DNA of 20,156 nt from a virus: positions 1 to 20,156 of the IMG/VR virus record IMGVR_UViG_3300017782_000308. The stretch is one strand, 5' to 3'. The stretch's first letter is position 1; each line of letters begins with the position of its first letter. Under the pieces are notes generated by a model. It was not told the DNA's origin. It made no database searches and saw only the letters and a program-made list of their open reading frames with translations. This document shows positions 3,084-19,763 of this stretch, piece by piece. The position numbers and the translations under genes were made by a program.

Positions 3084-4934
3084 TTATCTAGGTTTTAAAA
3101 ATCCGTTGTTTTTCATTCTTTTTGGTGGTTTTGCTACTAGCTTATCGTTTCTTTCAGCTGTAAATCCTTCAGATAAAGCTTTAGTGTAAGATATTGCTTC
3201 ACTTGGCTTGATATTACTCTTAGCACCTCTTGAAGATGTTTTATAGATTTGTCTCAACCAAAAGTGATGGCAATTTCCACCGCCTTTGTATAGCCATATA
3301 GAATATGTAGCAGCGCCACGAGGTCCCCATCCTGCATTAACAGCCCTAGAACCCATTTGTATAATATCTTCTTTTCTGTAAACTTTTCTTGCTGACATCA
3401 TAATATTACAAAAATCCCTTGTACTTCCTTCTTGACTTAGGAAATTATCTTTAGTGTAAACATATCTAACTTTATAAAAATCATTATCTGATTTATTAGT
3501 ACCATCTTGTTCACTTCTTGCGTTCGGTCTTGCTGTTCCTGTAGAAGCTAATTCTGTTTTGTTGTAACTATTTAGTTCAGCTTCATAATTAAAATCTTGG
3601 TGTTCTCCATCAACAATTTCTTCATCTATCAATTCCCAATCTTCAGGAATATCTTCTCCAAATTCTTCAATAAATTTTTCAAGTTCAGTTGCTTCTGTTT
3701 TAGCAAGTTTAACATCTTGCTCAACTGTGTCTTCATCTCCTAAAGGTTCAAGTCCTAAGTCTGAACGTATTTCGTCAATCGTCATTACTTCCCTTATTGT
3801 CTTAGAGTCAAATTGTACTGTAATAGGTTTTAATTGTACAAATTCTACAGGCAAGTCTATGTTGTTTACTGAGAATATAGTTTGCAAAGTGTTTAAGATG
3901 TTTAATTGGAAGCCACGAACAACTGTATTTTGATAGAAATTAGCTGCGTTTATTAGCTCGTCTGCATTACTAGAAAAGCCATTAGAAGTATCAATACCCA
4001 TTAAAGTTTTAGATGTAATTCTATGTGCTGCACAAATATTTGAAACTAAAAGCTCTTGTAAAGCTAAGTATTGCTTGTCTGCATCAGAAACGCTTATAGG
4101 TGTTATTTCAGGTGTTCTAGTCTTATCGTCTGAAAATGTTAAAATAAATTTGCCCGAATTTGCGGCACCCACGAATTTATCAGTAAGACTTTGTTCTATT
4201 TGTCGTCTTTCTTCTTGTGTCGGTACTCCGTTCGCAAAGGATATGAAGTAGCTTCCTGAGAAGCCGTTCTCTATATTGTTTAAATGAAACTCTGCAACTC
4301 TTTGGTCTACTAAAGCCCAATTACAACCTGCTATGTAATCAGGTGTATGATAAACGTCCATATTAGGACTGTAAGCACCTGTATATAGTAACTGACTTCC
4401 TGAAGTCCTATCGTTTACATTGAAAGCAGTAATAGGATAGGGTTTATTTGTTCTAGTGTTTCCCCAATCAGCACTTATAAAGTAAGTATCAATCTTACCT
4501 AGTTCGTTAGGTCTTCCCGCTCTTACTCGTTCTACAGGTACGTGATACAGCTCAACTATTTCTGTTCTTTCTCTGTTCCATACAATATGCAAAGCGTATG
4601 CTCCCTGAAGCTTAAAATCAAAAGCAACTTTCTTAATTACTTGGTGTAAACTTTCATTTGAATTAGCGTGTCTTAAAAACTTTTTAAGTTTAACATAAGT
4701 TTCTAAATTAATAGCGTCTTCTTCTTCACATACTAAGTCCTCACCTGCTATAATTTCGGCTGTCTGATTAATAATTGCAGCGTGTGTTGAACTTGAATAG
4801 TAAAGGTCAATTAAGAACTGAGGGTAAAGATTTTTCCAATCTTCCGTTCCGTATTCTATATAATCACGTCCTCTAACCTCTTGTACTATTGGAGCTGTTG
4901 ATGTTTCTAAGTTTATACTAAGTATTTTGTCCAT
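3084..4934 (-). CDS. Portal protein with MuF-like C-terminal domain
   Basis: A 616-residue protein. The N-terminal two-thirds are portal-like: YGTEDWKNLYPQFLIDLYYSSSTHAAIINQ near residues 28-58 matches the start of PBSX/SPP1-type portals in Bacteroidetes phages, followed by GAYALHIVWN, ELYHVPVERVRAG and LVSNICAAHRITSKTLMG. The portal is the dodecameric ring at one capsid vertex through which DNA enters and leaves. After an acidic linker (about 410-450), the last ~150 residues contain STRDFCNIMMSARKVYRKEDI and YKGGGNCHHFW, reminiscent of MuF minor head proteins (RxFC ... NCxxxW). This suggests a portal-MuF fusion. It starts one base after the LamG-like gene and lies far from the terminase, which is unusual. 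Confidence 0.85.
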   Translation of the reverse strand: MDKILSINLETSTAPIVQEVRGRDYIEYGTEDWKNLYPQFLIDLYYSSSTHAAIINQTAEIIAGEDLVCEEEDAINLETYVKLKKFLRHANSNESLHQVIKKVAFDFKLQGAYALHIVWNRERTEIVELYHVPVERVRAGRPNELGKIDTYFISADWGNTRTNKPYPITAFNVNDRTSGSQLLYTGAYSPNMDVYHTPDYIAGCNWALVDQRVAEFHLNNIENGFSGSYFISFANGVPTQEERRQIEQSLTDKFVGAANSGKFILTFSDDKTRTPEITPISVSDADKQYLALQELLVSNICAAHRITSKTLMGIDTSNGFSSNADELINAANFYQNTVVRGFQLNILNTLQTIFSVNNIDLPVEFVQLKPITVQFDSKTIREVMTIDEIRSDLGLEPLGDEDTVEQDVKLAKTEATELEKFIEEFGEDIPEDWELIDEEIVDGEHQDFNYEAELNSYNKTELASTGTARPNARSEQDGTNKSDNDFYKVRYVYTKDNFLSQEGSTRDFCNIMMSARKVYRKEDIIQMGSRAVNAGWGPRGAATYSIWLYKGGGNCHHFWLRQIYKTSSRGAKSNIKPSEAISYTKALSEGFTAERNDKLVAKPPKRMKNNGFLKPR

Positions 4935-4935
4935 T

Positions 4936-5613
4936 TTATAAGTTTGATAAATAAGTATTTACATTAGCTGTAAGTGCTGTGCTTTCTGTATCATATATTT
5001 GTATTTCGCTAATTGTTCCGTCATAAGCGTTAGCGTCTGTTGCTCTTACTCCTATTGCGTCAATATTTGCTGTTCCTGCTAAAGTTTGTGTATTAGTTTG
5101 AGCAACTCCATTAATGTAGAGTGTAACTAAGTTAGACGCATTTCTTGTAATAACTAAATAATTGTCTGCTGACAAGTCGCCATCATTTACAGTAATATCT
5201 ACTTGCGAACCGTCTGTTTTAAACCTTAATTTTGTACTACTAGTTATTTTAAAAAATTCGTTGGTTTGTGTGTTATCTCCTAATACAATTACATTATTTA
5301 AAGCAGGGTAAAGTCTTAACCCTAAAGTAAACGCACCTGATAAGAGTATATCAGAAGCCGTTTGTAAACTTTGAGTAGCTGAAGCGTCAAAGTCAATAGC
5401 ACCTGAATTGTAAGCAGGTTGTTCACTTGCTGTAGCTTGTACCATATCAAAACTATTAGAAGAACTATCAGCCCAAGCTGAAACATCAGAACCATTTAAT
5501 GTAATTCCTGTTTGAAATTTGTACCACGCTTCAAGACCTGTTTCATCAGAAGGTTGCCAACCCCCTAACGTATTAGTACTTACTAAACTTAATGCTTGTT
5601 TAAGTGCTAACAT
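4936..5613 (-). CDS. LamG/concanavalin-like structural protein
   Basis: The frame is open from an ATG at 5673, but I choose the ATG at 5613 (MLALKQALSL), giving 225 residues. That ATG shares its A with the TAA of the upstream gene (TAATG), and the extra N-terminal 20 residues would overlap that gene out of frame. Residues from about 19 (W-P-S-D-E-T-G-L-E-A-W-Y-K-F) to the end are a beta-rich LamG-like jelly roll: DSSSNSFDMVQA, AIDFDASATQSLQT, FTLGLRLYPA, and near the end LVTLYINGVAQT and GTISEIQIYDT. Such domains bind glycans or decorate capsids and tails. A role in host adhesion or capsid decoration is inference, because the gene lies between small structural genes and the portal. Confidence 0.7.
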   Translation of the reverse strand: MLALKQALSLVSTNTLGGWQPSDETGLEAWYKFQTGITLNGSDVSAWADSSSNSFDMVQATASEQPAYNSGAIDFDASATQSLQTASDILLSGAFTLGLRLYPALNNVIVLGDNTQTNEFFKITSSTKLRFKTDGSQVDITVNDGDLSADNYLVITRNASNLVTLYINGVAQTNTQTLAGTANIDAIGVRATDANAYDGTISEIQIYDTESTALTANVNTYLSNL

Positions 5614-5897
5614 TATATAACTTGCTCGTAGTAACAAATAGCTAAACCACTTGTCAAAGTGATAGCCGTACATTGAAGAAATAAAGTCGTTCCCGCAGGT
5701 ATAGTCGTGTGAAGACTTGCCGCTGCTGAACCTGTACCTGTTTGAATATTAGAAGCAGTTATTGAGGCTATTACACTTTCTGTAACAAAGTGAATTGCAT
5801 AATAGTCTTTACCTGTCATTGCTGTAGTAGTAATAACATCACATCTATTTTTCCCTAGTTGCTCAGTTAATAATTGTTGTACGTTTTCTATTGCCAT
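5613..5897 (-). CDS. Small structural protein, unknown
   Basis: A 94-residue protein starting MAIENVQQLLTEQLGKN. The N-terminal part is helical-looking. From residue 24 on it is Thr-, Ala- and Ser-rich with alternating hydrophobics (SASLHTTIPAGTTLFLQCT-like), suggesting beta strands. It has two Cys in the C-terminal half. There is no signal peptide and no recognised motif. The start follows an A-rich leader (AATAAAATAAAAAAAA), and the stop overlaps the next ATG, so it is coupled to the LamG-like gene. Its place inside the virion gene cluster suggests a minor virion or decoration protein, but that is only context. Confidence 0.6.
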   Translation of the reverse strand: MAIENVQQLLTEQLGKNRCDVITTTAMTGKDYYAIHFVTESVIASITASNIQTGTGSAAASLHTTIPAGTTLFLQCTAITLTSGLAICYYEQVI

Positions 5898-5908
5898 TTT
5901 TTTTTATT

Positions 5909-6391
5909 TTATTGTCCGTAATATATATAGTTTGTTTCTGTCGGTGCTTCTCTTTGCTTGTATCTAACTTGCTGAGTTCCGTCTTTTTCTGATAAGTTCA
6001 TTTTACCTTTAGTAACTAATCCCTGAACTACTCCTTTATCGTTAGCTACAGGGCTTAAAACATCATTTTCTGTTACAGGTGCATTTCCTGAAGAAACAGT
6101 TACTGTTCCTATCCAACTAACCTCGTAAATTTCATACTTCCAATAACCTGCAGGAAATAGCTTTACAAATCCTGTATAAATATTAGGTGTAGTTCCGTAA
6201 GAAATATTTATATTAGTATATCTATCTTTAATAAGTTCAGTATTGCCGTAAGCATAATATACAGACTTATCTAAGTCGTTTGTGAATTTGACTAAGTGTC
6301 TTATTTGAGTAGAAGCAACAGAAGTATTGATACGATTGTCCTCAGTTTGCACGTATATCTTTAAGTCTGTTTCTGTTGTTGCTTGTATCAT
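5909..6391 (-). CDS. Conserved phage structural protein, unknown role
   Basis: A 160-residue protein of beta-rich character: TETDLKIYVQTEDNRI at the N-terminus, YWKYEIYEVSW in the middle (about 83-93), then ENDVLSPVANDKGVVQGLV and a C-terminal end TETNYIYYG. I recall this arrangement as a recurrent hypothetical protein in virion clusters of Bacteroidetes phages, but I know no established function. It is the first gene after the UUCG terminator and is preceded by a copy of the TATTATATAAC motif (6420-6402), so it may begin a separate transcript. It is followed after 11 bases by the 94-residue structural gene. Confidence 0.6.
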   Translation of the reverse strand: MIQATTETDLKIYVQTEDNRINTSVASTQIRHLVKFTNDLDKSVYYAYGNTELIKDRYTNINISYGTTPNIYTGFVKLFPAGYWKYEIYEVSWIGTVTVSSGNAPVTENDVLSPVANDKGVVQGLVTKGKMNLSEKDGTQQVRYKQREAPTETNYIYYGQ

Positions 6392-6401
6392 AGTTAGTTT
6401 G

Positions 6402-6420
6402 TCTGTTATATAATAGAAAT
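6402..6420 (-). promoter_or_regulatory. Upstream repeat motif, copy 1 (possible promoter)
   Basis: The minus strand here reads ATTTCTATTATATAACAGA, 11 bases before an ATG. The same 19 bases recur without mismatch at 18537-18519, immediately before another gene. Related shorter forms precede the scaffold and protease genes. The site lies just downstream of a strong terminator, where a new promoter would be expected. It does not match TANNTTTG, so it may instead be a phage-specific promoter or an AT-rich translation leader. Confidence 0.4.
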
Positions 6421-6451
6421 AAGCTGTATTTATTTGTATTCAGTTAGTAAT

Positions 6452-6480
6452 AAAAAGAAAAAGGTGAACCGAAGTCCACC
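6452..6480 (-). terminator. Intrinsic terminator with C(UUCG)G tetraloop
   Basis: On the minus strand GGTGGAC-TTCG-GTTCACC (6480-6463) forms a 7-bp stem with one G-U pair, closed by the very stable C(UUCG)G tetraloop. It is followed at once by TTTTTCTTTTT (6462-6452). It lies 27 bases after the stop of the tube-like gene. It is the clearest rho-independent terminator in the window and probably ends or attenuates the capsid-tube transcript. Confidence 0.85.
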
Positions 6481-6507
6481 CTAATCAAGAAATATATAAG
6501 AAAACTA

Positions 6508-7092
6508 CTAAGATGTAGTGATTGAGACATTCGTAAATGCTGAATTGTCAAAAGGATTTGTAGTGTAATCTGCTACCATTGGAAACGGTTCTGCCTCCAT
6601 TCCGTCAAATGTAAGAGTGTATCCGTTCTTATCTCCCCAAGCAGCACCTGTATCCATAGTACCTGCATTTAATTCCATTCCATTAACTCTCCCTAAACAG
6701 ATGATAACATCATGTCCGTTAGCTAATTGTTGATTTAATTGAGCAAAGACAACTGTTTTAGTCGCTCCGAGTAATTTCACCTGATTTTGGTCTTCTTTTG
6801 TAAGTCTGTTGAATAACACCTGAACTGTTGGTGTGTAGTAGATTGTTCCGTTTTCACGAGAACCAACAATTGTGTCAGTAACAGAAGCAACGCCCATAGG
6901 CATAGCATATCTGTAAAGTCCTGTTCCTGCTCCCATTTCAATATCAGTAACTTCTCCTGAAGCTTCAACAATTCCTACTGTTTCTATTGGTGCTGTAAAT
7001 TGGTCGTAAACTCCGAAATAAATAAACTTTACTCCTCCACTGATACGATTACAGTCGAGTCCCCTTCCCTTTGTTAAATTTGTACAAGCCAT
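6508..7092 (-). CDS. Probable major tail tube protein
   Basis: A 194-residue protein starting MACTNLTKGRGLDCNRISGG. It has GGVKFIYFGVYDQF (about 19-32), SRENGTIYYTPTVQVLFNRLTKEDQNQVKLLG, HDVIICLGRVNGMELNAGTMDTGAAWGDKNGYTLTFDGMEAEPF and NPFDNSAF near the end. The pattern of an alternating beta barrel with a KLTKED-like helix and a GY(T)LTxxGxE strand matches proteins I associate with tail tubes of Bacteroidetes siphoviruses. These form the stacked rings of the tail shaft. It directly follows the major capsid gene and ends at a strong terminator, as expected for an abundant protein. Tube identity is moderate: no diagnostic motif is known to me. Confidence 0.6.
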   Translation of the reverse strand: MACTNLTKGRGLDCNRISGGVKFIYFGVYDQFTAPIETVGIVEASGEVTDIEMGAGTGLYRYAMPMGVASVTDTIVGSRENGTIYYTPTVQVLFNRLTKEDQNQVKLLGATKTVVFAQLNQQLANGHDVIICLGRVNGMELNAGTMDTGAAWGDKNGYTLTFDGMEAEPFPMVADYTTNPFDNSAFTNVSITTS

Positions 7093-7115
7093 TTTATTTT
7101 ATTTTTTAGGTTAAG

Positions 7116-7141
7116 GGTGGAAGGGTTTTACCCCCTCCATC
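7116..7141 (-). promoter_or_regulatory. Hairpin between capsid and tube genes
   Basis: Two arms (7116-7125 and 7132-7141) can pair over about ten positions with one mismatch and one G-U pair, around a six-base loop. On the minus strand it is G-rich then C-rich and unusually GC-rich for this DNA. No T tract follows, so it is not a standard terminator. It could tune the capsid/tube ratio by stabilising the end of the capsid message or by partial termination. Confidence 0.45.
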
Positions 7142-7156
7142 CGTATTATTTATTTA

Positions 7157-8068
7157 TTATGATTGGTAAACGATATCAGCTCCAACTCCTACCTGAACAC
7201 CTCCTGAGTAACGAGCAACTAATCTCATATTGTCGCTTCCGTCCAAAGCAGCCATATCCATCAAAGAAATTCTTGTAGCATCTGAAAGCAAGTCAGTACC
7301 GAAGAATAAGTTAGATTTTTCTGCTGCTACTAATTTGTTGTCTAACATTCCGTTACAAACAGCGATTTTGTACCCTTCAAATACAGGAACGTAATCTCCA
7401 TTCATATTGTAAGCATTAACATACCCTAAAGTAGATACTGCTGATACATATAAAGCGTAAGTCTTAGGACTCATGTAAATATGTAAGTCTTCTTTTCTCA
7501 ATACTGCTGAAATATCAGATGCCATATCAGCTGTTAAAGTTTGTAAGTTAGTTATGATGTTAGCTGCTGTGTAAGCACCTGAAGCAGTTGAAGCATTTAC
7601 TGTTCCATCTACTGCAAAGATACCTGTAGTTCCTGTTAAGAAACCTTCAAATTCTCCTGCATTTGCTGCTGCTCCTGACCATACTGAGTCTTCAACTCCA
7701 TTAGCGATAATTTCTCCCATGTAAGAAATTACATAGTCATCAAAAGATGCAGGTGGTGGTGCTCCTGCTCCTGCTCTCATTTGTAACGCTTCCCATGAGT
7801 CTAATAATGTAGCCTTGCATAAGTCAATGTTAATTTGTAGATTTTTTGGAGTAAGTACGTTTTCTGTCAAAGCAAGAGTTCCTGCATCAGTAAAGTCGCA
7901 AGAAGCGTCTTTTACTAATCCTGAACCTGCCATTTTTTGAATGTTGCTCTTATACTTGATGTTTTCAATCAAAGTTAAGTAGTCTAGTGAGTTTGCTTGG
8001 TTTAAAGCTGCGGAAATGTAAAATCCTGCTGCCTTTCCTGCAAAATTGCTTGTCGTTGTAAAAGCCAT
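7157..8068 (-). CDS. Major capsid protein
   Basis: A 303-residue protein starting MAFTTTSNFAGKAAGF. Features typical of HK97-fold capsid proteins as seen in Bacteroidetes phages are an N-terminal helical segment, VLTPKNLQINIDLCKATLLDSWEALQM (about 72-98), FDDYVISYMGEIIANGVEDSVWSG (about 109-132), the P-domain strand LHIYMSPKTYALYVSAV, and the C-terminal block FEGYKIAVCNGML ... MRLVARYSGGVQVGVGADIVY. It would form the icosahedral shell. It follows protease and scaffold genes in the classical protease-scaffold-capsid order, which is strong context. No cross-linking Lys-Asn pair can be assigned by eye. The start follows an AT-rich leader with no Shine-Dalgarno site (AATAAATAAAAAACAAAAAC). Confidence 0.8.
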   Translation of the reverse strand: MAFTTTSNFAGKAAGFYISAALNQANSLDYLTLIENIKYKSNIQKMAGSGLVKDASCDFTDAGTLALTENVLTPKNLQINIDLCKATLLDSWEALQMRAGAGAPPPASFDDYVISYMGEIIANGVEDSVWSGAAANAGEFEGFLTGTTGIFAVDGTVNASTASGAYTAANIITNLQTLTADMASDISAVLRKEDLHIYMSPKTYALYVSAVSTLGYVNAYNMNGDYVPVFEGYKIAVCNGMLDNKLVAAEKSNLFFGTDLLSDATRISLMDMAALDGSDNMRLVARYSGGVQVGVGADIVYQS

Positions 8069-8093
8069 GTTTTTGTTTTTTATTTATTAATTA

Positions 8094-8786
8094 TTATTTA
8101 TTTAAATCTTGTAAGAATTTTTCTCTTTTTGATAACTTAGCGTAGTCTTTTCTAGCCATTGGTTTTCTATCTGAACTGAACTTGTTTGTGTCTAAAGGTG
8201 CTGAAGCAGGTTGTGCTGCTAACTCAGTTTTTAACCTTTCGTTTTCTTCTTTTAACTTAGTCAATTCATCTTCTGCTGAGAATTCAACTACTTCTGTAGT
8301 TTTTATAGACTTAGGATTTGTAGAAGGTTCTTCTGTTTCTTCTGACATTTCTTCAACTTCATCATCACCGCCAACTTTTTCTTCTTTAAGTTTTGCTACA
8401 GCGATTTCTAAGTTTTCAATTCTTTTTTCCATACCTTGCCAATCAGCAACGTCCGCTTCTTCATCTTCTTCAGCTAATACTGTTTCTTCTGCTAAATCTT
8501 CTTCTTCAACTGTATCTACTTCTTCAGTTTCTGACTCAATAACTTCAGCTACAATACCTTCTTCTTCAACTCTAAAAGATACGCCTGTGTCGGTCTTGTA
8601 AGTTCCTACAGGAAGTAAAATTGTAGTTCTGTCCTCTGTGAGAACTGATATATCCACTCCTGCTTCTAATTCTTCAGCAGTTGAAACAAAGATTGTTCCG
8701 TCTTCTGATTTTGCTTGCCACTCTAACTTAATTGTTTCTTCTTTGTTAAGACCTAGAGCTACTAAGATTTGTTCTTTAATGTCCAT
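8094..8786 (-). CDS. Acidic scaffold-like capsid assembly protein
   Basis: A 230-residue, extremely acidic protein with long Glu/Asp-rich stretches (about 85-115 and 135-155). Coiled-coil segments lie near 118-137 (WQGMEKRIENLEIAVAKLKEE) and 173-192 (EDELTKLKEENERLKTELA). A basic C-terminus (RKPMARKDYAKLSKREKFLQ) follows. Coiled coils and a basic C-terminal tail are typical of phage scaffolding proteins, whose C-terminus binds the capsid protein inside the procapsid. The position between the prohead protease and the major capsid gene is the standard place for a scaffold. The first ~70 residues form a separate beta-rich part (EWQAKSEDGTIFVSTAEEL, TILLPVGTYKTDTG). Role inferred from context and composition. 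Confidence 0.7.
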   Translation of the reverse strand: MDIKEQILVALGLNKEETIKLEWQAKSEDGTIFVSTAEELEAGVDISVLTEDRTTILLPVGTYKTDTGVSFRVEEEGIVAEVIESETEEVDTVEEEDLAEETVLAEEDEEADVADWQGMEKRIENLEIAVAKLKEEKVGGDDEVEEMSEETEEPSTNPKSIKTTEVVEFSAEDELTKLKEENERLKTELAAQPASAPLDTNKFSSDRKPMARKDYAKLSKREKFLQDLNK

Positions 8787-8834
8787 AATTCTTTTTAGTT
8801 TTATTAGTGTTTGTAATATATAATAGATAAACTA

Positions 8835-9548
8835 TTACTTTGTTTGATTTTGCTTAATTATTTCATTTAGTGCTGAAAGAATTTCCTCATTACTTGGTGC
8901 TTTTTCTGACATCTGTTCCATTTTGTCTGTAAAGTAGCCTTCTATTGATAACCCTTTTAATTCACCTTCTTTGATTTTATTCCAAAGTTCGTCATTTTCT
9001 ATTTTCATTTTTACAAACCAAGTGCCATTAGGTAAGTCGTAACCGTATAACTTAGATTTGTCTTGGTCACCTTCCTTAATCCAACTTTCAACTGTTAGAA
9101 CCCCTGATACTCTATCTTGATGTTGGTATGTAGCTTTATGGTGATTGTTATGTTTTAAATATAATTCAGAAGCTTTACGTACTGTTTCAGGACTGAAGTA
9201 CACATAGTAGTCGCTGTCTGTATTTGGGTCGTGTCTGAATATTTGCTTGTTAGGAATAAGTGCAGGACTAACCAACATTCTTTTCTCCTCATCTACTTTT
9301 GCAAATGTTAAATTATTCTTTTCTTTTCCAAAGTAAACAAAGTCCTGTTCTATTGCAGGTGAAGTTACTAGACTAATAGCGTCTATTGCTAGTTCTTGAC
9401 TATCATCTGAAATTACTAACTCAACAATAGATGTAGTCTTTTCGTAATAGTCTTTGTTCGCTTCTTCACATTCAGCAATTGAGTCATATTGACAATCTCC
9501 TGTCTTTCCCCATTTATATTTTCCGTTTTCACATTGTTCGCAAGGCAT
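8835..9548 (-). CDS. Prohead protease, XkdF-like
   Basis: A 237-residue protein. Residues from about 38 to 210 match the XkdF-like putative serine protease pattern: SIVELVISDDSQELAIDAISLVTSPAI, then LVSPALIPNKQIFR, the probable catalytic His143 in TYQHQDR, and the probable catalytic Ser201 in GELKGLSIEGYF, as in herpes/HK97-type prohead proteases. Such enzymes cut scaffold and capsid proteins during head maturation. The first 30 residues carry four Cys (3, 6, 19, 27) in CEQCENGKYKWGKTGDC, a small Cys-rich module that could bind zinc. It lies just upstream of the scaffold and capsid genes, which fits. The assignment of catalytic residues is by pattern, not by alignment. Confidence 0.8.
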   Translation of the reverse strand: MPCEQCENGKYKWGKTGDCQYDSIAECEEANKDYYEKTTSIVELVISDDSQELAIDAISLVTSPAIEQDFVYFGKEKNNLTFAKVDEEKRMLVSPALIPNKQIFRHDPNTDSDYYVYFSPETVRKASELYLKHNNHHKATYQHQDRVSGVLTVESWIKEGDQDKSKLYGYDLPNGTWFVKMKIENDELWNKIKEGELKGLSIEGYFTDKMEQMSEKAPSNEEILSALNEIIKQNQTK

Positions 9549-9583
9549 AGTATATAATATATTTAATTAATTTTTATTTGATT

Positions 9584-11158
9584 TTAGATTGTAGCCCTTC
9601 TTCTAATATTGGCTAATTGGTTTTGGCTGCTTGTCATTTCATACGTAACTACATAAGCTTTAGTCGGCTCAGGTTCTACTCCTCCTGATAATTCAAAAGC
9701 TCCTGACATCATTTGAGGTGCAGGTGGTGCAGCAGGTGCTGAAACTCCTCCTCCTCCTCCTCCTCCTCCTCCTCCTGAGCCGCCTGTATCTGTTGCTAAA
9801 ATTGTTCTTACGTTCGCTAATCCTGCTGCAATTACTCCTGCTGCTGTTACATACCCAACAACACCACCCTGAGCAAATGCCTTATTTGCACCTACATAAG
9901 TATCAATAATCGCTGAAGCAACTGCTAGTTCTTTGTTATCTCCTGCTAAAGCACTTAATCCTGAAGCAAGACCTGAGAACGCTTCTAGTTGTTCGTTTAC
10001 ATTTTCTTGAACAATTTTTGACTTTGCTTTCTCATATTGTTTAGTGATAGCTGTAGTTTTCATTCCTGACTTCTTAGCCATCTTTTCCTTTAATTCATAA
10101 GCGTCTTTAAGTTCTTGTAATTCTCTTTCTAGTCCTGAAAGTCCTTCAGCTCTTAACTCCCTTTGAGCTTCTAAAAGTTCTTTTTCTAAAGCTACTGCAT
10201 TAGTCTTTTGTTCTGACAATTGACCTGTAATAGTTTCTTCAAGTTCAAGCATTCTTACTTTTTCACCTTGTAAGGCTATGTAGTTTTCTTCATTTGCGTT
10301 TATATTATATTGAGCTTGTGCTGCGTCTATTCCTGCTTGTACTTGTTCTCTTTGAAGCTGCTGTTGTTCTCCTAGTATATCATTTAACTTATTGTTGGCT
10401 TCAATTCTTTCTGCAAAAGTCTTAGTTTCATCATCTCTTATTTGTCTTTGTATCTCAGCATCTTTTAAGTATTGAGCATTTAACTTAGCAAATTCAACTG
10501 CTGCTCTGTTTGCTGCTTTCTTTGTTGCTGTTATTGCTGCTGCGTTGTTTATGACATTTTTTGTATAATCAGTTACAGCGTCTTTTGCTTTAGTAACTGT
10601 TTCAACTGTTTTATCAAAAGTATTGTCTACTCCTGTATAAACGTCTATCAATTCTTTTCCTGCTTCTGTTGCTAGGTCTGCTGCTTTATCAAAATCACCT
10701 GCAAATAAAGCTGCTACAGCACTACCTACAAAACCGAGTGTATCTACAAAACTATTAAACCGTTCTATAAGGTTATCTTGTATCAAATCCCCGAACTCCT
10801 TTAAAGACTCTTGTGGGTTTTCAAATATATCTTTAAAGAACCCTGTAAAAGCTCCTATATTATCATTTAGGAAATTAAACAAGTCATTGAACGCAATATT
10901 TAAAGCTGTCATTCCTGTATCAAAAGCGTCTAATACTTTTTGATTACTACTAAATACTTCCATTAGTTTTGCAAGTAAAGCAACAATAATTCCTATCCCT
11001 GCTGCTTTTAATGCCGTACCTACACCTTTAATAGCAACACCAAGTCCTTTAAAACCTTTTTTACCTTTTTTAGTAGCTCCTTCAAGCTTTTCAGTTTGCT
11101 TTACGACCTTCCCTATATCTGATTTTACATTTAATACAATTTCTTCTCCTTGTGCCAT
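9584..11158 (-). CDS. Tail tape measure protein
   Basis: A 524-residue protein. The N-terminus is Lys/Gly-rich (KKGKKGFKGLGVAIKGVG), followed by hydrophobic helices (TALKAAGIGIIVALLAKLMEVF, about 48-69; more at 120-160) and a long Ala/Glu/Gln-rich coiled region (about 200-385, with KLNDILGEQQQLQREQVQAG and ELQELKDAYELKEKMAKK). A second hydrophobic region (TAAGVIAAGLANV) precedes a glycine run and a conserved-looking end AYVVTYEMTSSQNQLANIRRRATI-type (ending NQLANIRRRATI). This is the build of tape measure proteins, which set tail length. At about 0.15 nm per residue the tail would be about 75-80 nm, which is a short tape measure. The gene lies after the tail-tip genes, the reverse of the usual order. 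Confidence 0.75.
   Translation of the reverse strand: MAQGEEIVLNVKSDIGKVVKQTEKLEGATKKGKKGFKGLGVAIKGVGTALKAAGIGIIVALLAKLMEVFSSNQKVLDAFDTGMTALNIAFNDLFNFLNDNIGAFTGFFKDIFENPQESLKEFGDLIQDNLIERFNSFVDTLGFVGSAVAALFAGDFDKAADLATEAGKELIDVYTGVDNTFDKTVETVTKAKDAVTDYTKNVINNAAAITATKKAANRAAVEFAKLNAQYLKDAEIQRQIRDDETKTFAERIEANNKLNDILGEQQQLQREQVQAGIDAAQAQYNINANEENYIALQGEKVRMLELEETITGQLSEQKTNAVALEKELLEAQRELRAEGLSGLERELQELKDAYELKEKMAKKSGMKTTAITKQYEKAKSKIVQENVNEQLEAFSGLASGLSALAGDNKELAVASAIIDTYVGANKAFAQGGVVGYVTAAGVIAAGLANVRTILATDTGGSGGGGGGGGGGVSAPAAPPAPQMMSGAFELSGGVEPEPTKAYVVTYEMTSSQNQLANIRRRATI
9745..9776 (-). repeat. GGA trinucleotide tract coding for poly-Gly
   Basis: The plus strand holds 32 bases of CTC/TCC repeats (over ten units), read on the minus strand as GGA codons. 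They give a run of about ten Gly near residues 460-475 of the tape measure protein, between its hydrophobic part and its C-terminal block. Each unit is three bases, so slippage would change the linker length without breaking the frame. Confidence 0.85.
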
Positions 11159-16138: not shown

Positions 16139-16684
16139 TTAGCTAATTATTTTTTGTTGTTTTAAACCGTCTATTATGCTTTCTTTTATTGCTGCTCCAA
16201 AATTATTACTAAATTGTTGCATTCCTAACATTAAAGGTTTCTGAAAGAAGCTTATGCCTTGTATTCCTTTTTTTCCAATGCTTCTAGCAATTAAAAACTT
16301 TATACTTTTTCTAGACATAAATTTCCCTTCTTTATCTCTTGGAGCTATTCCTTTTTTAACTATCCACTTATCAAGTGCCTTAGTAGGTGGTTGTGAGTGT
16401 CCTTTAGATTTTTTATAACGAAAAGGACTTTTAAGAGTTTTGCCTTTGTAATCTTTAAATCTTCTTTCTTTTTCTGTTCCTGAAACTCCCTTATCTACAA
16501 ACTTACCATAAGCAGCCATCTTAAACTTTACACTTAAAACCCCTTTGTCCTCTATCACAGTAAATGTAATAGATTTTTCTAAAGCAGTATCACCACCCTT
16601 AGATTTCTGTAAGTTTCCTTTTGCTCTATTTACTACTTGTTTACCAAAGCTATTAAGATATCTTTCAAGAGCATCTAACTTCAT
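16139..16684 (-). CDS. Tail completion/neck protein, HK97 gp10-like
   Basis: A 181-residue, strongly basic protein. It begins MKLDALERYLNSFGKQVVNRAKGNLQKS and has the arrangement of HK97 gp10-type head-tail joining proteins: an N-terminal helix, a beta segment with VKFKMAAYGKFVDKGVSGTE (about 53-72), and a C-terminal helical part with FFQKPLMLGMQQFSNNF. The phrase YGKFVDKGVSG, in which a small loop holds a Gly after Phe-Val, is typical of this family. These proteins sit at the neck or on the tail side of it. It is coupled to the upstream gene (TAATG) and abuts the next gene. It is reasonably assigned, though the sequence similarity is by eye. Confidence 0.65.
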   Translation of the reverse strand: MKLDALERYLNSFGKQVVNRAKGNLQKSKGGDTALEKSITFTVIEDKGVLSVKFKMAAYGKFVDKGVSGTEKERRFKDYKGKTLKSPFRYKKSKGHSQPPTKALDKWIVKKGIAPRDKEGKFMSRKSIKFLIARSIGKKGIQGISFFQKPLMLGMQQFSNNFGAAIKESIIDGLKQQKIIS

Positions 16685-17134: not shown

Positions 17135-17209
17135 TTATATTTTTATTGTTATTTTAAATTTCTTCCATCCTATTTGAACTATTAATCTGCCTATCTTAAA
17201 TTTGAACAT
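17135..17209 (-). CDS. Possible 24-residue peptide filling a gap
   Basis: The ATG at 17209 shares its A with the TAA of the upstream gene (TAATG). The frame ends in TAA one base before the ATG of the next gene, so it exactly fills the gap. The product is basic and alternates hydrophobic and charged residues: MFKFKIGRLIVQIGWKKFKI and four more. It may be a tiny real gene, or a leader that keeps ribosomes coupled between the two larger genes. The length is too short to decide. Confidence 0.3.
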   Translation of the reverse strand: MFKFKIGRLIVQIGWKKFKITIKI

Positions 17210-17754
17210 TAGTAACCTGCACCTCTTATATTAACAGGAATATTACAAGTCTGAAAGTCATTCTGAACTAATACTCCTAAGTTAAACACATATCCACAGC
17301 ATAAGTTATCAAATCTTTCCTGAAACGGTTCTATTGTAAATTGGTCTTGCGTAAAATAGATAGGTTCGTTTATATCATTTACTCCGTTTAAAGATTGTCT
17401 AGAACTGTGTCTTAACATTCCTATTATGTCTGTGCAAATAGCTAGTGTCTGATTGAATACTTCTTGTTCGTTATTCTCTGTGTTTACTAACTTAGTTAAT
17501 TCTGAATGTTGTTTTGTTTGCCAATCTGACTTCTCGCTTACCATATCCATTATAAAGATTTGGAAGTTATAAGTAAGCTGACTATCACCTGTAGTTACTG
17601 ATGTAGGATTTATGTGCATTAAAGGGAACTTCTCCATCTTTTCAAGATTGATGTCGTAAATGTCGCCAACTGAAGTAGTGCTGATTTGGTCGTGATACTC
17701 ACCTAACCTAAGCAAAGTATTTACTACATTATTATAAGTCTTATTATTTACCAT
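17209..17754 (-). CDS. Tail terminator/neck-like protein
   Basis: A 181-residue protein starting MVNNKTYNNVVNTLLRLGEYHDQI. It has an N-terminal helix and then a mixed alpha/beta part with KFPLMHINPTSVTTGDSQLTYNFQIFIMDMVSE (about 42-74). In the middle is a helix TKLVNTENNEQEVFNQTLAICTDIIGML, and at the C-terminus FDNLCCGYVFNLGVLVQND. The succession helix, strand pair, helix, strand fits tail terminator proteins (lambda gpU type), which cap the tail tube and join it to the head. Its start lies inside the end of the frameshifted chaperone frame (11-base overlap). I infer the role from fold pattern and its place before the gp10-like gene. Confidence 0.5.
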   Translation of the reverse strand: MVNNKTYNNVVNTLLRLGEYHDQISTTSVGDIYDINLEKMEKFPLMHINPTSVTTGDSQLTYNFQIFIMDMVSEKSDWQTKQHSELTKLVNTENNEQEVFNQTLAICTDIIGMLRHSSRQSLNGVNDINEPIYFTQDQFTIEPFQERFDNLCCGYVFNLGVLVQNDFQTCNIPVNIRGAGY

Positions 17755-18519
17755 TTCTTTGAACTTTATTTTGTGAGTTTAAGTCTGTTTCATAACTTAA
17801 CCAAGTCAAGCACTCTAACAGCCCTAAATTCGTTATTCTTTCTAAGTTTACTATCTCAGCTCCGCATAATCTGTGGAGGACTCCGAACCATCCCCACTTA
17901 TCAGCAAAACTTTCTGTTGCTATTGCGTCTTCGTTTCCTTCAGCTGCTCCATCAAATATAATGGCAAAATCTCTGACAACTCCTTCCCTAAATTGTAGAA
18001 AAAAAAAAGAGCTGCTTGTACTTGTTGAGCTGACATCTTTTTCATTTCTTCCGTCCTGAGCCGAATATCTCCATCATAAGCGTTAATAATATAAATGTCA
18101 TTCTTCTTTTCTTTTATCGGTCTAAACAATACAGCCATTATTTCAGGCATATTCTTTTCAATTCCACCCTTAATAAATGTTTCTAAGTCTGCATACTCGC
18201 CTAATGTTATACTGTCCAAATCAGGATGAAAGCCGTACTCAACACCATCTATTTTAATAATCTTTTTAAGCTTAGTATCTTGCTTTTGCTGTAACGCTGC
18301 TATCTTGTTCATTATAACTGCTACATCTGATAAAGCCAATTCCTTTACTAACTGCTTAGGAATGTTAGATAATGCTGCTATTGTTTCAGTTGCTTCTTCT
18401 GTCTTTGTGCCTGTTTCAAAATCAATAAGTTGTAACCACTTCTCTAACGTTACATCTTTCCAACTGCTTATAAGTTTAAACTCTTTTACCTTACCTTCTT
18501 TTTTAACTTTTACTTTCAT
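17744..18519 (-). CDS. Tail assembly chaperone G-T fusion by -1 frameshift
   Basis: Joined product of about 258 residues: 174 from the upstream frame, then 84 from the -1 frame, ending at TAA 17746-17744. The -1 frame holds no ATG, so it needs entry from the first frame. It codes for a convincing protein: SFADKWGWFGVLHRLCG, then LERITNLGLLECLTWLSYETD, typical of the C-terminal extension of tail chaperones. The slip site is a run of ten T (18008-17999) ending U UUU UUC in the zero frame, the X XXY YYZ heptamer of ribosomal -1 frameshifts. Slippage of RNA polymerase on the T run would give the same product. Extended forms (gpGT in lambda) bind the tape measure and tube proteins during tail assembly. 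Confidence 0.75.
17920..18519 (-). CDS. Tail assembly chaperone (G-like, unshifted form)
   Basis: A 199-residue protein starting MKVKVKKEGKVKEFKLISSWKDVTLEKWLQL. The middle is helical (TKTEEATETIAALSNIPKQLV, LALSDVAVIMNKIAALQQKQ). A short beta part follows (KIIKIDGVEYGFHPDLDS), then a helix-rich C-terminal region with FFYNLGKELSEILPLYLMEQL. The shape and the frameshift signal near its end fit tail assembly chaperones of lambda gpG type, which coat the tape measure before the tube polymerises around it. It is not next to the tape measure gene but next to terminase. Its start follows one of the two 19-base repeat motifs. Identity as a chaperone rests largely on the frameshift architecture and the extension. 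Confidence 0.7.
   Translation of the reverse strand: MKVKVKKEGKVKEFKLISSWKDVTLEKWLQLIDFETGTKTEEATETIAALSNIPKQLVKELALSDVAVIMNKIAALQQKQDTKLKKIIKIDGVEYGFHPDLDSITLGEYADLETFIKGGIEKNMPEIMAVLFRPIKEKKNDIYIINAYDGDIRLRTEEMKKMSAQQVQAALFFFYNLGKELSEILPLYLMEQLKETKTQ
17998..18008 (-). promoter_or_regulatory. Frameshift/slippage site (ten T, U UUU UUC)
   Basis: The plus strand has ten A at 17999-18008 after a G at 17998. Read on the minus strand in the zero frame, the codons are CTT TTT TTT TTC, so the run ends in the heptamer U-UUU-UUC. A -1 shift there joins the G-like frame to the 84-codon frame. I saw no strong stimulatory stem-loop directly downstream, which slightly favours transcriptional slippage over ribosomal frameshifting. 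Confidence 0.7.
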
Positions 18520-18551: not shown

Positions 18552-19763
18552 TTACTGTACGTAATACTTCCCTGCGTTAGGGTTGTCTAGGTGATAAATT
18601 ACGTTATATCTAACCCCATCTATTGCGTGGTTGTAGTTATCTACATAAAGCTTTGAGCCTTTGTCAGCGTATATATAGTTATTCAATTCTTTAGCTATGT
18701 TAGTGCTTTCAGGTGTTATGATTAGTTCATAATCTTGCATACGAGTTATTCCACTTTCAATAGTTCCTTTTTTAACAGGCTTTATATTTACCCCTAAATG
18801 TCTAAGGTCTGCTATTAGTCTTGGTTCTGCTGAGTCTGCTATGATGAGTTTATTATCTACTTTGTCTAATATTATTTGTGCCAACTCATTTGACTTTAAT
18901 CCGTTCTTGTATATATGTTCTTTTAAATATATCTTACGTTTCCTTTTATCAATAGCTACTTCAGTAAGACTGTCAGGGTCAACACTAAAACCAAAGTCCA
19001 TTCCGCAAGAAGTCTGTAAGCCATCAGGATTAAATTCACCTATTGACCAATTCTCAAATACAACTCCTTCAGCTTTGTCTAACCAACCCCCTAAGATTTT
19101 ATGCTGATACTTTTTAAAGTTTCTGTGCTTTATGCTCTTAATACGCTCTAGGAAGCTCTGTGAGAGGTTTTCTTTGTTGTCTCGGTAGTTGGTGTGTATA
19201 TAGCATACATTGTCTTTAAAGCCGTTAAAACCACCTTCTACGCCTTTGTCCTCAAAAAACCTTTTGTATATCCAATGTTCTTTAGTAACAGGGTTTAATA
19301 TTAATACTACTCTATTGTGTATGTTCTTTTCTCTAATACTTAAATCAATAGTGTCAAATATATTCTCATCAACTAATTCTTCTGCTTCGTCTAATACCCA
19401 TGTGCTTATTCCTTGTAATGACTTTAAACTTGCTGTTTGATTTCCTGCTGATGTTCTAATTCCTCTAAATAAAATATCTGACTGATTGCTTGTATTAACT
19501 ACTTCTGCTTTATTAATACTAAAGACTTCATCAAAACCTAGCAGTCCAATCTTTTCTAAGAATTCAGGAATAATAGACAAGTGAGCTGAAGTCATTGTAA
19601 AACGAGTAAAGAGAATTCTTATCCCTTTAGTCATTGTAAGTAAAGTTAAAAATACTGTTACAGCAAAAGACTTACCTGATCCCCTTCCGCCTGTAATTAT
19701 AAAGTAACGAGCATCAGAAGAAAATAATGGATTGTATTTCTTATTCAGTATCAGTTTCAACAA
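18552..19763 (-). CDS. terL: Terminase large subunit
   Basis: A 403-residue packaging motor protein. The N-terminal ATPase has Walker A GGRGSGKS (residues 25-32), Walker B WVLDEAEE (Asp125 and the catalytic Glu126) and a coupling segment LILNP (about 154-158). The C-terminal RNase H-like nuclease shows MDFGFSVDPDS with Asp256, LIIADSAEPRLIADL with Asp310, and HAIDGVRY with Asp382, a complete acidic triad. The family is the PBSX/Bacteroidetes type of terminase large subunits. It pumps DNA into the prohead through the portal and cuts concatemers. The frame starts with two TTG codons (19763 and 19760) and overlaps the small subunit by 23 bases. The next Met is residue 44, beyond the Walker A motif, so a TTG start is needed. 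Confidence 0.92.
   Translation of the reverse strand: MLKLILNKKYNPLFSSDARYFIITGGRGSGKSFAVTVFLTLLTMTKGIRILFTRFTMTSAHLSIIPEFLEKIGLLGFDEVFSINKAEVVNTSNQSDILFRGIRTSAGNQTASLKSLQGISTWVLDEAEELVDENIFDTIDLSIREKNIHNRVVLILNPVTKEHWIYKRFFEDKGVEGGFNGFKDNVCYIHTNYRDNKENLSQSFLERIKSIKHRNFKKYQHKILGGWLDKAEGVVFENWSIGEFNPDGLQTSCGMDFGFSVDPDSLTEVAIDKRKRKIYLKEHIYKNGLKSNELAQIILDKVDNKLIIADSAEPRLIADLRHLGVNIKPVKKGTIESGITRMQDYELIITPESTNIAKELNNYIYADKGSKLYVDNYNHAIDGVRYNVIYHLDNPNAGKYYVQ

Follow-up and report, generated by a model that had tools for sequence, protein, structure and literature searches.

The locus considered here, in a 20,156-base IMG/VR record of a virus of marine bacteria (IMGVR_UViG_3300017782_000308; "the window" denotes this whole stretch), raises the question of how a reading frame of 84 codons with no start codon can be translated when it lies directly behind a run of ten T in a candidate tail chaperone gene. 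For the long-tailed phages, tail chaperone genes are a textbook example of frameshifting programmed on the ribosome. For the present gene we favour, with a probability of roughly 0.6, another reading, namely that a siphovirus-like flavobacterial phage carries here a tail assembly chaperone gene of the G/GT type, whose longer product, GT, is made through slippage of RNA polymerase. A large and widespread group of flavobacterial tailed phages would then fix the ratio of the two chaperone forms already among the mRNAs, at a conserved run of nine or more T, rather than on the ribosome, and this would probably be the first tail chaperone known to do so; a literature search limited to open-access papers, and hence no proof, found no tail chaperone with transcriptional slippage. 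What is new is the slip signal, that is, a G/GT-type system with a run selected for its length. The parts of the locus are as follows.

17920..18519 (stop included), minus strand: short product, G-like tail chaperone of 199 amino acids, zero frame (open reading frame (ORF), homologues and model)
17999..18008, minus strand: slip site, ten T (U10 in the mRNA) (sequence; 9–12 T in 476/476 homologous loci)
17744..17998, minus strand: −1 frame extension, T-like domain, 84 codons and TAA (translation, homology, pN/pS and an all-helical model)
17744..18519, minus strand: putative long product GT, the first ~173 residues of G and the 84-residue extension (predicted protein, from the frames)
17920..17998, minus strand: dual-frame stretch, end of G and start of the extension (sequence)

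The sequence C-T10-C at 18009-17998 of the minus strand lies inside the 199-codon ORF (18519-17920), in which the ten-T run is read as CTT TTT TTT TTC (LFFF). The heptamer U_UUU_UUU corresponds to positions 18007-18001 and U_UUU_UUC to 18004-17998, the last base of the latter lying just beyond the run. In the −1 frame 84 codons are open, from 17998 to 17747 (LQFREGVVRDF...QRNGK), followed by TAA at 17746-17744. The extension contains no Met in the window, and the ORF list of the window showed no ORF of at least 60 amino acids starting there from ATG, GTG or TTG. The first ORF ends with its stop at 17920 and the next gene begins at 17754, leaving exactly 165 bases in between; the extension covers this gap and runs 11 bases into the next gene. 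The coordinates and the explanation of the gap given in the initial annotation agreed in full with the sequence and the ORF list.

Scans of IMG/VR gave 159 close and more than 300 more distant loci, and the set used (n = 476) comprised metagenome viruses and the isolated Nonlabens phages P12024L and P12024S. Ninety-nine lineages were defined as being less than 75% alike in the extension; they are not fully independent, and the P values given below are therefore only guides. An unbroken run of 9 (the commonest), 10, 11 or 12 T was found at the homologous place in all 476 loci, being read by hand in two contigs with little upstream sequence. The homologous extension was found in the −1 frame in 468 loci, of which the homologues reach down to ~28% identity; six contigs end too early, and two loci are run-length variants. 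In one of these (L194, around 3029) a T10 stands where relatives have T9, giving an in-frame G-T fusion; in the other (L323, around 2463) a T9 corresponds to T10 in its sister L322, and the T domain is moved to the +1 frame. Both may be real variants or single-base errors. The extension measures 80–93 codons in 99/99 lineages. With its recurrence at 468 of the 470 testable homologous loci and the selection in the −1 frame described below, the arrangement is more than chance, and the search for homologues of the extension behind a G-like protein, proposed in the initial annotation, had a positive outcome.

The same comparison bears on a sequencing or assembly error, earlier regarded as the main alternative, in which the true run would be 11 T and the locus one long gene. 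Homopolymers are prone to such errors, and L194 and L323 are each one T off from their near relatives, with loss of the −1 relation. However, 468 independently assembled loci, those of the isolated phages P12024L/S among them, keep the −1 relation at T9, T10, T11 or T12, in whichever codon phase yields it, and the zero frame retains a median of 56 more codons past the run. On the evidence of the homologues this explanation was rejected, and its likelihood is negligible. Phase variation, in which replication slippage at the run would toggle genomes between a fused and an unfused state, was likewise rejected on the homologues and is extremely improbable: apart from the two one-T variants among 470, which could be taken as its trace, 468/470 genomes are in the same state, and the protein is structural and not the product of a surface or defence gene.

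Among annotated records, those of the isolated flavobacterial phages P12024L and P12024S come closest, at 28–30% identity. Their run is CTT TTT TTT TAT (T9) and is followed by a homologous extension in the −1 frame with 28% identity, which has the motifs F-x-x-K-W-x-W and W-L-x-Y in common with that of the window. Comparison of the extension with annotated phages by tblastn gave no match; the P12024 extension was located by position and then confirmed by alignment. P12024L gp41 (L160 9411-9578) and P12024S gp39 (L161 3351-3518) are annotated as 55-amino-acid ORFs from an inner ATG and correspond to the ends of the −1 extension. This annotation, with an ORF beginning inside the extension, is what speaks for the extension being a separate gene, translated from an internal start or by re-initiation. 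No Met is present in the extension in 31/99 lineages, though, and elsewhere the median position of the first one is codon 63 of 85, while the conserved part begins directly at the run. A separate gene was rejected on these homologues as very unlikely, and the annotation should present gp40/gp41 and gp38/gp39 as G and GT, with the junction at the T9 run.

Purifying selection acts on the extension. Beyond the first stop, the ratio of nonsynonymous to synonymous polymorphism (pN/pS) was 0.14 in the −1 frame versus 1.6 and 2.7 for the remaining frames (78 distinct sequences), in agreement with the earlier impression, borne out also by homologues down to ~28% identity, that the extension looks like a real protein. 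The pN/pS of the upstream part of G (0.41–0.53) was not used, as misregistered rows may affect it. Since the zero frame continues past the run for a median of 56 further codons, most lineages read ~170 bases in two frames; the zero-frame tail beyond the run carries a conserved SGxGI motif (most divergent lineages, e.g., L175, L176 and L241), and in the window and in P12024 this tail is shorter than in most lineages.

The run itself is also selected. From synonymous choice and the codon usage of these genes an unbroken run was expected in 17.9 of 99 lineages and was seen in 99/99, and in the neighbouring ORFs (66,655 codons) T runs of seven or more were avoided, with 20 seen versus 50 expected and a single T9. 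Depending on the lineage, the first T of the run occupies codon position 1, 2 or 3, and the run length is never below nine in any phase. Where the T flanking the run on the 5′ side was lost, at least two extra T were present on the 3′ side in 6/6 contexts, versus 44/242 (P 5e-5), and in the form CGG TTT TTT TTT GTT the nine T are kept with the register shifted. An A/T homopolymer of about nine or more that is conserved as a length, as looked for in transcriptional slippage, is thus present. Nine A/T is also the length at which many bacterial genomes begin to avoid runs on account of polymerase slippage (PMC1088944), and insertions become exponentially more frequent as an A/T run lengthens, up to 9–11 (PMC5574713).

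Ribosomal −1 frameshifting would let a single mRNA yield both G and GT, as it does in lambda, a pair of tRNA-Phe slipping back by one base on U_UUU_UUU (in the window also on U_UUU_UUC) with no stimulator structure. A zero-frame heptamer of the type X_XXY_YYZ, as expected for this mechanism, is found as U_UUU_UUU within every run, and the shift is always to −1. The initial annotation had named U_UUU_UUC as a standard slip heptamer. Its emphasis on this heptamer is not supported, for in the commonest codon phase U_UUU_UUC never replaces the run, even though NTT TTT TTC, which would retain it, is synonymous in both frames in 73 lineages: none was seen versus 17.8 expected (P 1.4e-9), and TTC is used elsewhere in 81/99 genes. 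No unrelated heptamer was found in the 99 lineages, down to less than 30% identity, and a run of at least nine is kept in all three codon phases, its two ends compensating each other. A 3′ structure or an upstream Shine-Dalgarno-like element is a common, not obligatory, companion of ribosomal shifts. RNA structure showed no excess on either the 5′ or the 3′ side of the run (99 lineages, mean z −0.15 to 0.07), and a Shine-Dalgarno-like motif was found in 5/99 lineages, the same as in the controls; the absence of structure is no strong counter-argument.

Several observations weigh against slippage of the polymerase. The ribosomal heptamer is contained in every run, the tail chaperones of the lambda type described in PMC5009743 use ribosomal frameshifting, and the avoidance of T runs in other ORFs begins at seven, which is compatible with slipping on the ribosome too. 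The amino acids encoded in both frames may partly keep the flanking T, and the rapid stop in the third frame, described below, is partly due to the conserved dual-coded TTTAGG/TTTAAG. As regards the function of the protein, its resemblance in fold to HK97 gp13 is weak, and it is not named by any family. Nevertheless, because the length is kept in all phases, U_UUU_UUC never substitutes and neither structure nor Shine-Dalgarno motifs are in excess, the comparative sequence data agree better with RNA-polymerase slippage than with slippage on the ribosome, the mechanism described for other tail chaperones. Of the two mechanisms between which the initial annotation made no choice, the polymerase is therefore preferred, while the ribosome is a possible but less probable agent.

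With the polymerase as the slipping enzyme, ordinary reading would give the short G of 199 amino acids, and at the ten-T run RNA polymerase would sometimes add one U or drop two. A fraction of the mRNAs would thus have the 84-codon extension in frame, and their normal translation would yield the longer GT. By analogy with lambda, G may cover the tape measure protein, and GT may use its T domain to recruit the tail tube protein. In 99/99 lineages the third frame reaches a stop within seven codons (median 2 versus 5 at control positions), so transcripts with other slips would be read into a stop after a few codons and yield only a slightly shortened G.

No sequence family names the protein: there was no Pfam match for it and no NCBIfam match for the extension. 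The sole PHROG matches are to families of unknown function, phrog_32199 for G (in 70/70 homologues) and phrog_38404 for the extension, with a weak match to phrog_166 'tail protein' in 6/70. G and T were modelled separately. The AlphaFold model of G had a predicted local distance difference test score (pLDDT) of 83, and that of the extension is a small all-helical domain (pLDDT 81). The best fold match of G in the PDB is the HK97 gp13 tail assembly chaperone (2ob9), a weak one with Z 4.3 over 69 residues and a root-mean-square deviation of 3.3; it tops only six rows with Z of at least 2, the next being well below it at Z 2.6. Foldseek of G against the PDB gave nothing significant (best E 2.1). 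BFVD viral models named tail assembly chaperone match G at E 0.02–0.2. VIA-align gave no row for T, which says nothing about the T fold. The pattern seen in chaperones of this kind, a short protein and a longer form with a C-terminal extension in another frame, is predicted from the sequence, and the extension is selected at the protein level. Because of this two-product architecture, the conserved place after the terminase large subunit gene (terL) and the weak HK97 gp13 fold match, and not because of sequence, the protein is very probably a tail assembly chaperone of the lambda G/GT type. The initial proposal of a −1 extension of a tail chaperone is thus supported by homologues, selection, synteny and the weak HK97 fold match, the chaperone identity being probable.

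The G model and the T model both match two single proteins in BFVD, A0A6J5MY57 (244 amino acids) and A0A6J7WDG4 (226 amino acids), which may be GT proteins that other phages naturally encode in one frame. In Flavobacterium phage 6H, gp10 (L477 10352-10927) is a fold relative of G (E 8e-4) and is followed, in the gap to 10047, by an unannotated −1 frame ORF of ~100 codons. Its slip region has only T6C, with TAG directly next in the −1 frame, which points to some other site or mechanism.

Two further genes belong to the conserved surroundings.

18552..19763, minus strand: terL, conserved upstream neighbour (Pfam Terminase_3, 3e-31)
17209..17754, minus strand: next gene, 181 amino acids, start inside the end of the extension (ORF; homologue in 81/84 testable lineages)

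terL lies just upstream in 88/91 testable lineages, the next gene is kept in 81/84 and the gene at 16139-16684 in 82/84. The candidate tape measure gene at 9584-11158 (phrog_3336, 3e-11) is ~6.6 kb from G/GT, and a candidate for the tube protein lies at 6508-7092. Chaperone genes usually lie between those of the major tail protein and the tape measure, whereas the order here is terL, G/GT, next gene. Such a position is usual but not essential to the function, and hence the claim is that the protein works like these chaperones, not that it belongs to them by sequence.

Compared with the lambda G/GT and HK97 gp13/gp14 type, to which G is linked by the weak fold match to HK97 gp13, the present gene shows no sequence similarity in Pfam, NCBIfam or annotated PHROGs. 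It is located directly after terL and not just before the tape measure gene, and its slip site is a stretch of nine or more T selected for its length, in place of a variable seven-base heptamer. A homopolymer of at least nine A/T, as here, is found in Shigella mxiE (U run), Thermus thermophilus dnaX (nine A) and insertion sequence (IS) elements. In mxiE one nucleotide inserted at the U run fuses two overlapping ORFs (PMC1088944), resembling the one-base insertion proposed here, and dnaX likewise has stops nearby in another frame. Those are host or IS genes, whereas here the gene is a phage structural one and slippage is deduced by comparison only. P12024L/S share the homologous gene, the extension and the T9, but gp40/gp41 and gp38/gp39 are annotated as separate hypothetical proteins with the frameshift unannotated.

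If polymerase slippage is correct, a whole phage group obtains the same two-product output via RNA polymerase, which would mean that the output is selected independently of the mechanism, as is known for dnaX. Transcription could then be the step that determines the ratio of the two forms, in hosts that make little use of Shine-Dalgarno pairing. In hundreds of viral genomes the gene is split or lacks annotation, and the extension will escape gene callers.

Of two scans of genome contigs, one gave no relative and the other a single contig from a metagenome-assembled genome (MAG), and neither showed clear prophage copies. This 36-kb contig (L476, PAPR01000004.1, in a MAG named Pseudooceanicola) has the same G/GT gene with T9 and is probably a phage contig binned into the wrong, alphaproteobacterial genome. 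In the window, the region 3084-11158 has an unusual order, in which the tape measure candidate comes first, followed by the head protease, the capsid and finally the portal gene, far from the terminase.
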